NCBI GenBank assembly: GCA_947493955.1
Contig: CANLSQ010000001.1
Location: 930,001 to 994,000 of the forward strand
Reading direction: 5' to 3'
Origin: an uncultured Sphingomonadaceae bacterium
GTDB taxonomy: Bacteria; Pseudomonadota; Alphaproteobacteria; Sphingomonadales; Sphingomonadaceae
Length of the DNA: 64,000 bases
Each line of letters starts with the position of its first letter. Position 1 is the stretch's first letter. The translations under genes were made by a program, and so were the position numbers. Shown piece after piece: positions 52,681-56,893 of the stretch. The notes beneath the pieces were generated by a model that was not told the DNA's origin, did no database searches, and worked only from the letters and a program-made list of their open reading frames with translations.

Positions 52681-53718
52681 TTATCGTGACTTTACGATGC
52701 AATCGTTGCCGGATGCCTTGACACTTCCGCAAACCTTGCTCGCTTGTGCCTTGGTGGCAAAGGGACCCGCTTGCAATCGCGTGATCGAGCCGGCTGCAAC
52801 CAGATAGGGCTGCAAATTGTTCAGGGCAGAAACCCGTTTCTCCAGATTGTTCCATAGTGCCTTGGCCTTGTTCTGGTCACCAAAAGCACCCAGTTGAACG
52901 CGCCAATTGCCGGTTGCTGCCGTGCGAACGGGTGCAGGGGCCGGTGCCGGAGCAGGCTTAGCCACTGGCGGTGCCTTAACGGGTGCTGGAGCCGGAGGCG
53001 TTGCAACTGGAGGCGGAGCGACAGGTTTCGGCGCGGGAGTCGGAACCGGAGCAACAGCTTTCGATGCGGGTAATTGTGCGGTCTGTATCGCGCCACTGGA
53101 TGGCGTTGCTCTCAAACCACCGACCTGTGCAGTCCGAACACGTTTTTCATTCTCTTCCATCTGGCTGGCCAGTTCGATGGCCCGGCGGCGCTTGTCGAGG
53201 GGGATATATTTGTCCATCTGCGCCATGTTGGACGTCGCTTGTGGCAATCCTGCGGCCGAAGCGCGGGTCATTAACGCATAGGCCCTGATCCAGTCTTTCT
53301 CGACAAAATCGCCATTAAAATGCCCTGTGCCCAATACATATTGCGCGCGCGGTTCGCCGCGATTGGCGGAAGCCTGCAGATAGGGCAGGGCCTCTTTCCG
53401 CCGCTGGTTCTGGAAAAGGATCAGGCCATAATTGTCACTGGCCTGCAAATGGCCCTGGTCAGCCGCGCGTTTATAAAATTGTTCGGCTTTGGCCAGATCC
53501 ATGGGTACGCCGCGCCCAAGCTTGTAGGCCTGACCCATATTAAACTGCGCATCGGCATCGCCTGCGTTGGCAGGTCCACGCCACTCGGCAACAGCGGCTT
53601 TATAGTCGCCGCGTCCCCAGGCATCGACACCGTCTTTTACATCGGCCAATGCGGGCGTGCCGAATCCGAAAACCGCAGATGCCATTAAGATATGGCGCGC
53701 TATCTTGGAATTTTTCAT
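52681..53718 (-). CDS. Exported Sel1/TPR and SPOR-domain protein
   Basis: This 345-residue protein has a signal peptide (MKNSKIARHILMASAVFGFGTPALA). Sel1/TPR-like repeats occupy about residues 30-165 (AQFNMGQAYKLGRGVPMDLAKAEQFYKRAADQG and similar), then a Pro/Ala/Val-rich disordered stretch (VAPVPTPAPKPVAPPPVAT...), and a SPOR domain at the C-terminus (NWRVQLGAFGDQNKAKALWNNLEKR to NDCIVKSR). SPOR domains bind denuded septal glycan. It is divergent from parA and shares architecture with the TPR-SPOR lipoprotein downstream of it, so the two may bracket one function. Confidence 0.85.
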   Translation of the reverse strand: MKNSKIARHILMASAVFGFGTPALADVKDGVDAWGRGDYKAAVAEWRGPANAGDADAQFNMGQAYKLGRGVPMDLAKAEQFYKRAADQGHLQASDNYGLILFQNQRRKEALPYLQASANRGEPRAQYVLGTGHFNGDFVEKDWIRAYALMTRASAAGLPQATSNMAQMDKYIPLDKRRRAIELASQMEENEKRVRTAQVGGLRATPSSGAIQTAQLPASKAVAPVPTPAPKPVAPPPVATPPAPAPVKAPPVAKPAPAPAPAPVRTAATGNWRVQLGAFGDQNKAKALWNNLEKRVSALNNLQPYLVAAGSITRLQAGPFATKAQASKVCGSVKASGNDCIVKSR

Positions 53719-53981
53719 GTGATCAGGCCCTCGGTATTCAAATTGCTAACAGTCATCTTATGCGTAATTTGTCCTTAACGCCAATTTGCAAATTATTCGT
53801 AACCTTAAACCAAAAATCTGACCGGTGACTGAATCGAAATCTAAAGCCGTGTAAAATAATTTTCCCGCACAAAAAAACATCACGCGTTTGTTAACCCTAT
53901 TTTAGCCCTGTTCTGTCAGAGAAGTCGATGAATGAATTTCAGACGTCCTGATCAACACGTGATGATACTAAGGGGAATAGA
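53719..53981. promoter_or_regulatory. Divergent SPOR/parA intergenic region with TTAAC-like boxes
   Basis: The 263-bp gap between two divergent genes is AT-rich. It holds TTAA-CCCTATT-TTAG at 53891-53905, one mismatch from the CtrA half-site pair TTAA-N7-TTAA, plus further TTAAC/GTAAC sequences near 53776 and 53800. The parA start GTG 53982 has AAGGGGAATAGA before it. CtrA control would be plausible for cell-cycle genes in an alphaproteobacterium, but the match is weak evidence. Confidence 0.3.
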
Positions 53982-54704
53982 GTGCGAGTTCTAGCAATGG
54001 CATCCCAAAAAGGTGGTTCCGGCAAAACAACTTTGTCGGGTCATCTGGCCGTACAAGCCCAACTGGCCGGAGCCGGCCCGGTTGTCCTGATCGATATCGA
54101 TCCACAAGGTTCTTTGGCCGATTGGTGGAACGAACGCGAAGCGGAACTGCCTGCTTTTGCGCAGACCACTGTATCTCGCCTCGCTGCCGATCTGGCGATC
54201 TTGCGGCAACAGGGCTTCAAACTGGCAGTGATTGACACCCCGCCAGCCATTACCATGGCAATTCAGTCCGTCATCTCCGTGGCTGAACTTATTGTTATAC
54301 CAACGCGTCCCAGTCCGCATGATCTGCGCGCTGTGGGTGCAACCGTCGATCTGTGTGAACGTGCCGGCAAACCACTATTGTTTGTCGTGAACGGCGCAAC
54401 GCCTAAAGCAAAAATCACTTCGGAAGCCGCTGTCGCGCTGTCTCAGCACGGGACGGTTGCCCCGATTACCGTGCATCACCGGACAGACTTTGCCGGATCG
54501 ATGATCGACGGCCGTACCGTTATGGAAGTTGATCCCGATGGACGCTCTTCTCAAGAAATCCAGCAGCTGTGGGGTTATATTTCCGACCGTCTCGAGAAGA
54601 ATTTCCGCCGCACCGTATTTTCATCACCTGCCATGGCGCCGACAACCAATGTCGGAGTTCCTCGGCCCGGAAGCAATTTCGGTCGCCGGGTCATCGGGTC
54701 CTAA
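53982..54704 (+). CDS. Orphan ParA-family ATPase
   Basis: This 240-residue deviant-Walker ATPase has MASQKGGSGKTTLSGHLAVQA (KGGSGKTT with signature Lys), DIDPQGSLADWW, VIDTPPAITMAIQSV and IVIPTRPSPHDLRAV, all in place. There is no helix-turn-helix N-terminal domain, so it is the small (McdA/MipZ/orphan-ParA) type rather than a plasmid ParA. No parB or parS-like repeat follows; the next gene, coupled by GGGAGGAG, encodes a disordered protein with an RHH-like C-terminus. Such ParA proteins position protein cargoes along the nucleoid or cell axis. Confidence 0.9.
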   Translation: MRVLAMASQKGGSGKTTLSGHLAVQAQLAGAGPVVLIDIDPQGSLADWWNEREAELPAFAQTTVSRLAADLAILRQQGFKLAVIDTPPAITMAIQSVISVAELIVIPTRPSPHDLRAVGATVDLCERAGKPLLFVVNGATPKAKITSEAAVALSQHGTVAPITVHHRTDFAGSMIDGRTVMEVDPDGRSSQEIQQLWGYISDRLEKNFRRTVFSSPAMAPTTNVGVPRPGSNFGRRVIGS

Positions 54705-54721
54705 TGGGAGGAGCAGAGAAT

Positions 54722-55426
54722 ATGAGCGAACCTAAGCCATTAGCATCCCTGTCATCTTCCTTGCTGGCACGCAAAGGCGGCGCCAAGCCTGCCATGCGGC
54801 GTCAAGGAATGGCATTTCCAACTCAGTCTGATCATGAAAATGAAGACCTGGGGTGGAATGACATGGGTTATGACACCAATCCTGATCATGAAGCAGGCCA
54901 ATCGGACACGAACGGACCTGTCGATGCGGATCAGTATCATTACAATCCTTTGGCAGGAGCGATTCCCGAGGTTGTTCCGGCGGTTAAGAAACAGCAAGAA
55001 GAAATTGCTGCGAAGTTGAGCCAGCAGCCGCAACGCGAAGAGCAAGTTGCAGCAGAACCCGAACAGAAGATCGAGCCTGTTAAAAAGGAACAGGCGGTTC
55101 CTGTTCCCCTCTCTATTTCCCGCGAAGTGGCACCGGTTGCTGAAAATTCCAGCATCGGAGTTGCTCCACCTGCGCGTAAGAAGGCAAATCCTGCCAAGTC
55201 CGCAGTCAAAACACGTCGTCCGGCACAAAAGTCGCGAACACGGAAAGCCAAGGCTGCGTTTACCTTAAGGTTGGACGCTGACAGGCACCTGAAACTGCGG
55301 TTGGCGACGGCTGTGAAGAATGTTTCGGCACAGCAGTTGGTAACCAAAGCCGTGGACGAATATTTGAGGTCTATCCCCGAACTTGACGACTTGGCAGAGC
55401 GCATTCCGTCACGCGGCGCTGCTTAA
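54722..55426 (+). CDS. Disordered protein with C-terminal RHH-like domain, ParA partner
   Basis: In this 234-residue protein the first ~160 residues are low-complexity and charged (SEPKPLASLSSSLLARKGG, Glu/Gln runs), then Lys/Arg-rich (KKANPAKSAVKTRRPAQKSRTRK), and the last ~60 residues look like a ribbon-helix-helix or short helical DNA-binding fold (AAFTLRLDADRHLKLRLATAVKNVSAQQLVTKAVDEYLRSIPEL). ATG 54722 with GGGAGGAG upstream is clearly the start; the open frame back to 54569 lies in the parA C-terminus. The arrangement (ParA then a disordered basic partner) parallels McdA/McdB-type positioning pairs, but homology is not asserted. Confidence 0.7.
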   Translation: MSEPKPLASLSSSLLARKGGAKPAMRRQGMAFPTQSDHENEDLGWNDMGYDTNPDHEAGQSDTNGPVDADQYHYNPLAGAIPEVVPAVKKQQEEIAAKLSQQPQREEQVAAEPEQKIEPVKKEQAVPVPLSISREVAPVAENSSIGVAPPARKKANPAKSAVKTRRPAQKSRTRKAKAAFTLRLDADRHLKLRLATAVKNVSAQQLVTKAVDEYLRSIPELDDLAERIPSRGAA

Positions 55427-55462
55427 AATAACGATACAGAATTTAATTGCGAGGGCATTGAT

Positions 55463-56893
55463 ATGAAACGCGATACGATATTGAAACTGGCCGCTTCGAC
55501 TATGGTCATTTCGACAACTCTGACCGGTTGCGGTCCTTTCGGAGGTGGTTCTGTCGCATCTTCATCGAGCAAACCTGCTACGGTAAAAGATGGCGCAAAA
55601 TACGCCAAAAAAGCTGAAAAGGCTCTCCGTAAAGGCCAGGTCGAAAAAGCGATTGCCTATGCAGAGCGGTCCGTTGCCGGTGTGGGCAGTGACCCGGAGA
55701 CACGAGCGTTGCTTGGTCAGTCTTACCTGGCCGCCGGTCGTTTCCATTCTGCGGAGCGCAGTTTTCTTGATGCCATGGAACTGGGTAAGAGAGATGCACG
55801 CACGATCTTGAGCCTGAGCCTGTCACAACTGGGCCAGGGAAAAGCCAATAAGGCGAAACAATTGATCGAGAATAACCGGCAATTCATTCCAACGGCAGAC
55901 TATGGTCTGGCTTTGGCTCTGGCCGGTGATTCCAAAGGCGCAATTGCCGAGCTCGAGCAAGCCATTCGTAGCTCTAACGTTACCGGTCGTACCCGCCAGA
56001 ATCTGGGATTGGCCTATGCTCTGGACGGTCGCTGGAAAGAAGCAAAATTGATGGCAATGCAGGATATGACACCTGCCACTGTCGATAACCGCATCATGCA
56101 ATGGGCACAAATGGCTCGTCCGGGTGCTTATGAAGTGCGCGTAGCGTCCTTGCTCAATGTTCAGCCAGTTGCCAATGATCCGGGTCAACCTGTTCGTCTC
56201 GCACTGAATGCTGCTCCTGTTGTTCCCGTTGTTGCTGCGGCGACGCCTGCCGAAGATTATAGCCGGGAAGTTGCCAGTTTCGATTCTGAAACGCCTCTTC
56301 CAGCTGTCGGTCCAGCACCTGTGGCAGACTCCGACGTCGACTTCATGGCCAAGGAAAATAACGTTAAAGTGACAAAAGTTGCAGTTCCTGCAAGCAAACC
56401 TGCGGAGGAAAAGAAAGCTGCTAAACCGTCCGCACCAGCTCCGGAAAAAACCTTCATTGTTGAAGGCTCGGACGCACCGGTACCGGTCAAAAAAGCAACG
56501 CCTGTTTCGACGGCAGCGGAGCAAGTTATTGCCGCGGTACAGCCAGTGTTGCAAAAAGTGGCTTTCACACCGCGTACCCGAGCCATCTCCAATGGCAAGC
56601 ATTTGGTGCAGCTCGGCGTATTCTCTTCACCTGAAAATGTGAAGCGCGCCTGGGGTATTTTGTCGTCGAAAAATAAAGACCTGGCGTCGTTCCAATATGC
56701 GAGCTCGCCGATCCAGCGGAATGGCAAGACGCTATATCGCTTGGCTGCGATGGGCTTCGGCAATGAACAGGCAGCCAAGGACATGTGTGTCGGCATTAAA
56801 GCGAAGGGCGGCGCATGTATTGTTCGCAACGTTGAAAAAGTGCGTCCGACACAAATGGCTAGCAAGGCACCGCAAAAGCTCGCTGCACGCTAA
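55463..56893 (+). CDS. TPR/SPOR-domain lipoprotein
   Basis: This 476-residue protein has a lipoprotein signal (TLTGCGPFGG, about residues 18-24). TPR repeats run from about residues 45 to 220 (KAEKALRKGQVEKAIAYAERSVAGV, ALLGQSYLAAGRFHSAERSFLDA and more). A Pro/Ala/Val-rich linker with KKAAKPSAPAPEKT follows, and a SPOR domain ends it (KHLVQLGVFSSPENVKRAWGIL to CVGIKAKGGACIVRNVEKVRP). Outer-membrane anchoring plus SPOR suggests a septal or polar envelope role. It follows the RHH-like gene in the parA operon. Confidence 0.85.
   Translation: MKRDTILKLAASTMVISTTLTGCGPFGGGSVASSSSKPATVKDGAKYAKKAEKALRKGQVEKAIAYAERSVAGVGSDPETRALLGQSYLAAGRFHSAERSFLDAMELGKRDARTILSLSLSQLGQGKANKAKQLIENNRQFIPTADYGLALALAGDSKGAIAELEQAIRSSNVTGRTRQNLGLAYALDGRWKEAKLMAMQDMTPATVDNRIMQWAQMARPGAYEVRVASLLNVQPVANDPGQPVRLALNAAPVVPVVAAATPAEDYSREVASFDSETPLPAVGPAPVADSDVDFMAKENNVKVTKVAVPASKPAEEKKAAKPSAPAPEKTFIVEGSDAPVPVKKATPVSTAAEQVIAAVQPVLQKVAFTPRTRAISNGKHLVQLGVFSSPENVKRAWGILSSKNKDLASFQYASSPIQRNGKTLYRLAAMGFGNEQAAKDMCVGIKAKGGACIVRNVEKVRPTQMASKAPQKLAAR

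Follow-up and report, generated by a model that had tools for sequence, protein, structure and literature searches.

The window, which is the whole 64,000-nucleotide stretch of DNA that was analyzed, comes from an uncultured member of the Sphingomonadaceae. Its open reading frame positions and Pfam matches confirmed that four genes reported in a preliminary description, made from the sequence alone, are present where that description had placed them. These genes and the shorter features within or beside them are as follows.

52681..53718, (-) strand: exported protein with Sel1 repeats and a SPOR domain (Sel1-SPOR), 345 aa, divergent from parA; Pfam Sel1 E 3e-12, SPOR E 3.6e-15
53890..53904, (+) strand: CtrA-like box GTTAACCCTATTTTA, upstream of parA
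53982..54704, (+) strand: small ParA, 240 aa, GTG start, with a deviant Walker A (KGGSGKTT), an RPSPHDL segment and a C-terminal FGRR
54722..55426, (+) strand: adaptor (the ParA partner), 234 aa, with an N-terminal putative ParA-docking motif, a disordered middle and a C-terminal ribbon-helix-helix (RHH)
54743..54790, (+) strand: adaptor motif ASLSSSLLARKGGAKP, codons 8-23, conserved among 37 relatives
55250..55372, (+) strand: RHH domain of the adaptor, codons 177-217, comprising the strand AFTLRLD and two helices
55463..56893, (+) strand: lipoprotein with TPR and SPOR domains (TPR-SPOR), 476 aa; Pfam SPOR E 3.2e-11, TPR_19 E 1.5e-5

The ParA-adaptor pair and the neighboring SPOR proteins

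The SPOR domain scored above the Pfam curated cut-off in both SPOR proteins of the window, and a signal peptide in the Sel1-SPOR protein and a lipobox-like LTGC in the TPR-SPOR protein were read by eye. Comparison of the TPR-SPOR protein to named families gave only matches far below the cut-offs, among them that of its C-terminal part to the NCBIfam model of Caulobacter FtsN (E 1.8e-11, far below the cut-off). The source genome encodes five SPOR proteins in total. It has no further ParA close to the one in the window; the second-ranking ParA-like match had an E value of 2e-5.

The ATPase domain of the window ParA starts at residue 1 and was matched by Pfam AAA_31 (E 7e-13), and the protein scored 162.5 bits on NF041546, below the cut-off of 180. 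The closest solved structures were those of ParF of plasmid TP228 (4dzz and 5u1g; E about 1e-14), with residues 1-196 aligned to 4dzz at an E value of 1.4e-14. MipZ is also a ParA-fold ATPase of Alphaproteobacteria, but the Pfam match to MipZ (PF09140) covered only profile positions 2-53 of 262, at the Walker A end, and the assignment fails because the match does not span the MipZ profile. The earlier characterization of this protein as a ParA without a ParB was literally right, since the partner has no match to a ParB family, and the pair is for the same reason not a canonical ParABS system. The term orphan has to be dropped: the partner is the next gene, and the two form a ParF/ParG-like pair with plasmid relatives.

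The RHH-like C terminus that had been proposed for the partner was borne out by a profile of its relatives and by predicted helices. The window adaptor alone matched RHH_10 with an E value of 0.084, which is below the Pfam cut-off, and the profile of 37 adaptor relatives matched ParG (1p94) at an E value of 0.002 in addition to other RHH structures. AlphaFold placed helices at residues 186-199 and 203-216 with pLDDT values above 90, as well as a low-confidence helix at residues 12-20, and a Foldseek search with the adaptor returned mostly RHH proteins, none of them below an E value of 1. The strand AFTLRLD presumably retains the Arc-like DNA-contact positions. Near the N terminus, positions L10, L14, K18, G19, A21, and P23 of the adaptor motif were invariant in 37 relatives, and in a set of 34 relatives R17 was near-invariant and K18 invariant. 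The motif in the tail of ParG is not known to resemble that in the tail of the adaptor. Many RHH adaptors, such as those of loci L087, L092, and L146, end in a CxC sequence (e.g., CPCL or CACL) that is absent from the window adaptor.

Like the type Ib system ParF-ParG of TP228, the window pair consists of a small ParA that has a deviant Walker A and no N-terminal helix-turn-helix (HTH) and, next to it, an RHH partner whose N-terminal tail is unstructured. It differs from ParF-ParG in being part of the chromosomal core of sphingomonads, in its longer adaptor, in its link to SPOR proteins, and in the upstream region, where no repeat array was found (0 direct repeat families in 53719-53990, a search that could miss degenerate boxes). 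Because no centromere repeats were found at the operon, we call the pair ParF/ParG-like and not a member of type Ib. In the excerpts of the ParF-ParG study consulted here, an arginine-finger-like motif lies in the unstructured ParG tail, of which residues 8-22 adopt a short helix next to alpha-5 of ParF, near D111 (PMC7308502). The RPSPHDL segment, which was invariant across 22 diverse ParA relatives, was matched by eye to this alpha-5. The C-terminal FGRR peptide of ParA (window positions 54660-54701) was conserved in many RHH-type systems and absent from the systems shown in which the partner carries a membrane helix and a SPOR domain (TM-SPOR); it is a possible second docking site.

Conservation and natural losses in Sphingomonadales

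Whether the four genes are conserved together had been left as a question by the preliminary description, which would have abandoned its proposal had they been scattered, and joint conservation was what we observed. Among the 64 genomes of the family, ParA was present in 60, with an adjacent downstream partner in 59 of these, an adjacent TPR-SPOR gene in all 60, and a divergent Sel1-SPOR gene in 55; all four genes occurred together in 54 of the 64. Across the order, an orthologous ParA was present in 123 of 147 genomes (an initial tally of 125 also counted a distant paralogue in each of G085 and G121), and these orthologues were 60 to 88% identical over their full length, compared to at most 38% for the other ParAs of the same genomes. 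The remaining 24 of the 147 genomes lack it, and ParA is thus not essential everywhere. With the detection limit at an E value of 1e-3, the partner was recovered in 89 genomes of the order, and in all 89 it came immediately after ParA on the same strand. In the other families of the order, ParA was present in 63 genomes, the partner was detected in 30, all adjacent, and a Sel1-SPOR gene was found in 35, adjacent in 30; the downstream TPR-SPOR gene fell below the search threshold in these families and was visible on reading the loci. At the class level, a ParA at least 56% identical was found in 38 of 289 genomes (4 of them from the family), one more copy at 50% lay on a 10.7-kb contig, and the remainder were at most 42% identical. 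In other families of the order, an Hsp20-like gene follows the cluster downstream of the TPR-SPOR gene (L085-L093 and L098), and behind it, in several loci, lie genes that by eye are ptsN-, hpf-, rpoN-, and lptB-like.

Natural losses affected different parts of the cluster. Genome G132 has lost both ParA and its partner and retains the Sel1-SPOR and TPR-SPOR genes 0.2 to 0.3 kb apart, with the CtrA-like box between them. In genome G125 the partner alone is missing, and the ParA of this genome deviates at 12 columns with a conservation of 93% or more, a number that no other of the 119 rows reaches; the next highest number, 10, came from distant taxa. Three of the substitutions in G125, T86A, P88S, and G43A, fall at columns that are otherwise invariant in 118 rows. 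Judged by this alignment, the ParA of the partnerless genome is diverging. Genomes G105, G121, and G133 lack ParA, the partner, and the TPR-SPOR gene and retain the Sel1-SPOR gene.

Of 62 Sphingomonadaceae, 52 had the pattern TTAAC-N6-TTR within the 130 bp preceding parA, versus 0.22 expected from shuffles; near parA it was seen in 1 of 18 cases from the remaining families of the order and in 1 of 70 from beyond the order. The window box, GTTAA-N7-TTAG, has one mismatch to the CtrA consensus, TTAA-N7-TTAA (PMC9437464, in part). According to the sections available of the sources, the CckA-ChpT-CtrA relay is conserved in Sphingomonadales (PMC2877005) and the motility of Sphingomonas melonis is under CtrA control (cited in PMC9437464). 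The strict box pattern occurred once in the 3.4-Mb source genome, i.e., there was no genome-wide enrichment, and in 20 relatives it was not above the control. Genome G132, with ParA and adaptor both lost, has kept the box, as have five genomes with no detected Sel1-SPOR gene; in three genomes where only the Sel1-SPOR gene remains, the stretches that were fetched did not contain it. The box therefore goes with the operon and is not just an operator for the adaptor. A good guess is that CtrA controls the parA operon. In the genus relatives L223, L226, and L222, GTTAACC-N5-TTA stands before a gene for a P-domain/DUF11 exoprotein (twice) and before a sigma-54 activator gene.

The adaptor motif, its C-terminal modules, and plasmid relatives

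Throughout the class, the product of the gene after parA had the N-terminal motif ASL[TS]xxLL[AV][RK]KGxAxP (in short form, ASLxxxLLaRKGxAxP), as read from 106 rows that were chosen by a looser form of the same motif. The strict motif was present in 23 of 24 TM-SPOR loci and in 73 of 99 other loci, with most of the misses being a recognizable variant; 4259 open reading frames of at least 100 aa from those loci gave 67 matches, none of which lay more than 1.5 kb from ParA. The C-terminal module that accompanies this motif was RHH in most loci, HTH-like in L071 and L144, and a membrane helix plus a SPOR domain in 24 loci, whose carriers include Parvibaculum (Parvibaculaceae), Tepidicaulis marinus, and Kiloniellaceae metagenome-assembled genomes (MAGs), among others. 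The share of this last type is biased upward, as 20 of the 24 loci came from a named scan whose query started with a TM-SPOR-type ParA. All 24 partners matched a home-made SPOR HMM with an E value of 7e-18 or better, 6 of the 24 loci being seeds of that HMM; the same six were scanned with Pfam, and SPOR was above the cut-off in 6 of 6 (E 1.4e-10 to 7e-15). Hydropathy revealed a clear membrane helix in 21 of the partners and a weaker one in two, with one unscored.

FtsN, DedD, and DamX are bitopic SPOR division proteins. The TM-SPOR partners are like them in having a cytosolic N terminus, a single membrane helix, and a C-terminal SPOR domain, and are unlike them in having the adaptor motif in the cytosolic tail and in being encoded after parA. 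In a tree of 80 rows, from which near-copies, long-branch rows, and two phage/plasmid outgroups were left out, the ParAs of TM-SPOR loci formed two supported groups (99/91 and 100/98) nested inside the RHH-type ParAs, and a single origin of the SPOR partners was not rejected (AU p 0.086). RHH is likely to be the older adaptor module. Both kinds of partner were found in one genome in G155, G352, G268, and MAG OFTM296. The strongest indication that the ParA may work with septal-wall proteins comes from this exchange of RHH for SPOR. The third gene of the non-sphingomonad loci L064, L066, L065, L072, L075, L124, and L125 encodes a second ASL..RK-like N terminus and a PAS_5-like end, the PAS_5 matches being weak, below the cut-off, and made by Pfam in L075 only; the third gene of L076 encodes a C-terminal membrane helix.

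In four RHH-type loci of the Kiloniellaceae/Kiloniellales (L125, L135, L145, and L156), ParA and an RHH partner are followed by a third gene, the product of which is SL..RK-like in its N-terminal part, and then by a gene for a TPR protein that ends in a SPOR-like region; Pfam recognized SPOR in L135 and not in L125, for which the assignment comes from the home-made HMM. The preliminary description had proposed a ParA-based device tied to the cell envelope. The tie to the envelope gained support from the synteny of the four genes, from the fusion of the adaptor N terminus to a membrane helix and SPOR domain in related loci, and from these Kiloniellaceae gene runs, but both SPOR proteins of the window are exported, and in most RHH-type loci outside Sphingomonadales the flanks that were fetched contain no SPOR gene. 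In Sphingomonadales the SPOR association is strong; it extends to parts of other groups and does not hold everywhere. Because the two window SPOR proteins are exported or periplasmic, a direct link between ParA and SPOR is impossible there without another protein, and the link between the adaptor and the SPOR proteins in the window is functional at most.

ParA relatives at an E value of 1e-20 or better were found in 594 plasmid records, the best of them being 57 to 64% identical and lying on proteobacterial plasmids, namely those of Comamonas, Deefgea, Xanthomonas, Pseudomonas, Acidiphilium, and Thiothrix. In the plasmid loci that were read, parA is followed by a gene for a protein of 80 to 114 aa with the same kind of motif and an RHH-like end, and in two cases a replication gene is close by. 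The chromosomal pair and the plasmid cassettes have a common origin; we infer that the pair was domesticated from a plasmid, the tree leaving the direction unsettled. A relative of the ParA pair (L104) is carried by pMRCP1333, a small mobilizable Pseudomonas plasmid with blaIMP-1 and other resistance genes.

A possible role at the septum and its alternatives

PomZ-PomXY combines a ParA-type ATPase with a dedicated adaptor for non-plasmid cargo. The same holds for McdA-McdB, PpfA-TlpT, and ParC-ParP in the portions consulted of PMC9178275. The pair described here shares the ATPase-adaptor scheme with all of these, a likeness drawn from their description and not from adaptor sequence. On balance, we lean toward the reading that it is a chromosomal, domesticated ParF/ParG-like pair in which the C-terminal module of the adaptor sets the cargo or anchor and which is linked to a septal process. 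ParA-ATP dimers would coat the nucleoid, and the LLARKGxAxP peptide of the adaptor would dock beside the RPSPHDL segment of ParA and trigger ATP hydrolysis, leading to a ParA gradient. The C-terminal module would then decide what gets moved or anchored. Candidate cargoes are a site on the chromosome and the septum; the Flp pilus is a less likely one. In sphingomonads, a DNA-binding RHH dimer and two periplasmic SPOR wall proteins would serve the same process, most likely septum formation or daughter separation, and in Parvibaculaceae and Kiloniellaceae the membrane helix and SPOR domain would form a direct connection between the ParA gradient and septal peptidoglycan. Denuded septal glycans are the ligand of SPOR domains (PMC6895207, in part), so a SPOR-ended adaptor should meet ParA at the septum.

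A more specific form of this reading is put forward tentatively. It holds that one ParA-docking peptide would be carried on exchangeable anchors (RHH, HTH, or bitopic SPOR), that the SPOR form would tether nucleoid-bound ParA across the membrane to the septum, and that in sphingomonads the same device would operate together with two separate SPOR proteins and be controlled by the cell cycle. If true, the SPOR-form adaptor would be a direct nucleoid-septum coupling device. The adaptor family also offers an example of a plasmid-type partition adaptor re-tooled through a domain swap. The open question addressed is how chromosome position is coupled to septal wall growth outside Min, Noc, and MipZ, and the operon belongs to the core of an order that is large and culturable. 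It offers a putative docking peptide that is conserved, natural losses, and a natural adaptor-SPOR fusion that predicts a septal partner. In the open literature library, no paper combined "ParA family" with "SPOR domain-containing protein", and wider searches, judged by titles and the starts of abstracts, showed no work on this locus.

The domesticated, septum-linked pair was weighed against four other explanations. One, which we regard as rather unlikely, is a second chromosome-partition device, in which the RHH adaptor would bind a chromosomal site, ParA would move that locus, and the SPOR genes would be co-regulated division neighbors. RHH as the likely ancestral module, the partition-like plasmid cassettes (two of them beside rep genes), the presumed Arc-like contacts of the AFTLRLD strand, and the many RHH-type loci with no nearby SPOR gene all fit this explanation, but it does not account for the two clades in which TM-SPOR took the place of RHH, and the upstream repeat array was not found. 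The plasmid relatives, together with the loss of ParA in some genomes, are also compatible with a plasmid stability or incompatibility pair that survives as a relic, with no cell-biological role; the 60 to 88% identity and synteny of ParA across an order and the decay of ParA that accompanies partner loss argue against this, and we consider it highly improbable.

Slightly less improbable, although still quite doubtful, is service to a Tad/Flp pilus, with the TPR-SPOR lipoprotein, which we take to resemble TadD, acting as a TadD-like pilus protein. Flp pilin and ParA co-occurred (both, ParA only, Flp pilin only, and neither: 60, 0, 2, and 2 genomes in the family, p 0.003; 117, 6, 14, and 10 in the order, p 9e-6), in tests that ignore kinship and bin completeness and in which the family losses are few and partly from one genus. 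The three family genomes that lack the TPR-SPOR gene (G105, G121, and G133) have no Flp in two cases and a weak match in one. Against a pilus role, no tad gene was recognized beside the cluster in the 15 loci read, and among the 20 Flp regions fetched the sole match to the TPR profile was the cluster itself, with none in the other 19. A ParA that positions the flagellum or chemotaxis proteins, as in PpfA-TlpT, is the least credible of these explanations. It would be in keeping with the CtrA-like box and with the CtrA-controlled motility of Sphingomonas melonis (PMC9437464, in part), but the flagellum was rejected as cargo on the distribution of flagellin and ParA: among the flagellin-lacking genomes listed (20 of 33), ParA was kept in 20 of 20, and the four family genomes that lack ParA have flagellin.
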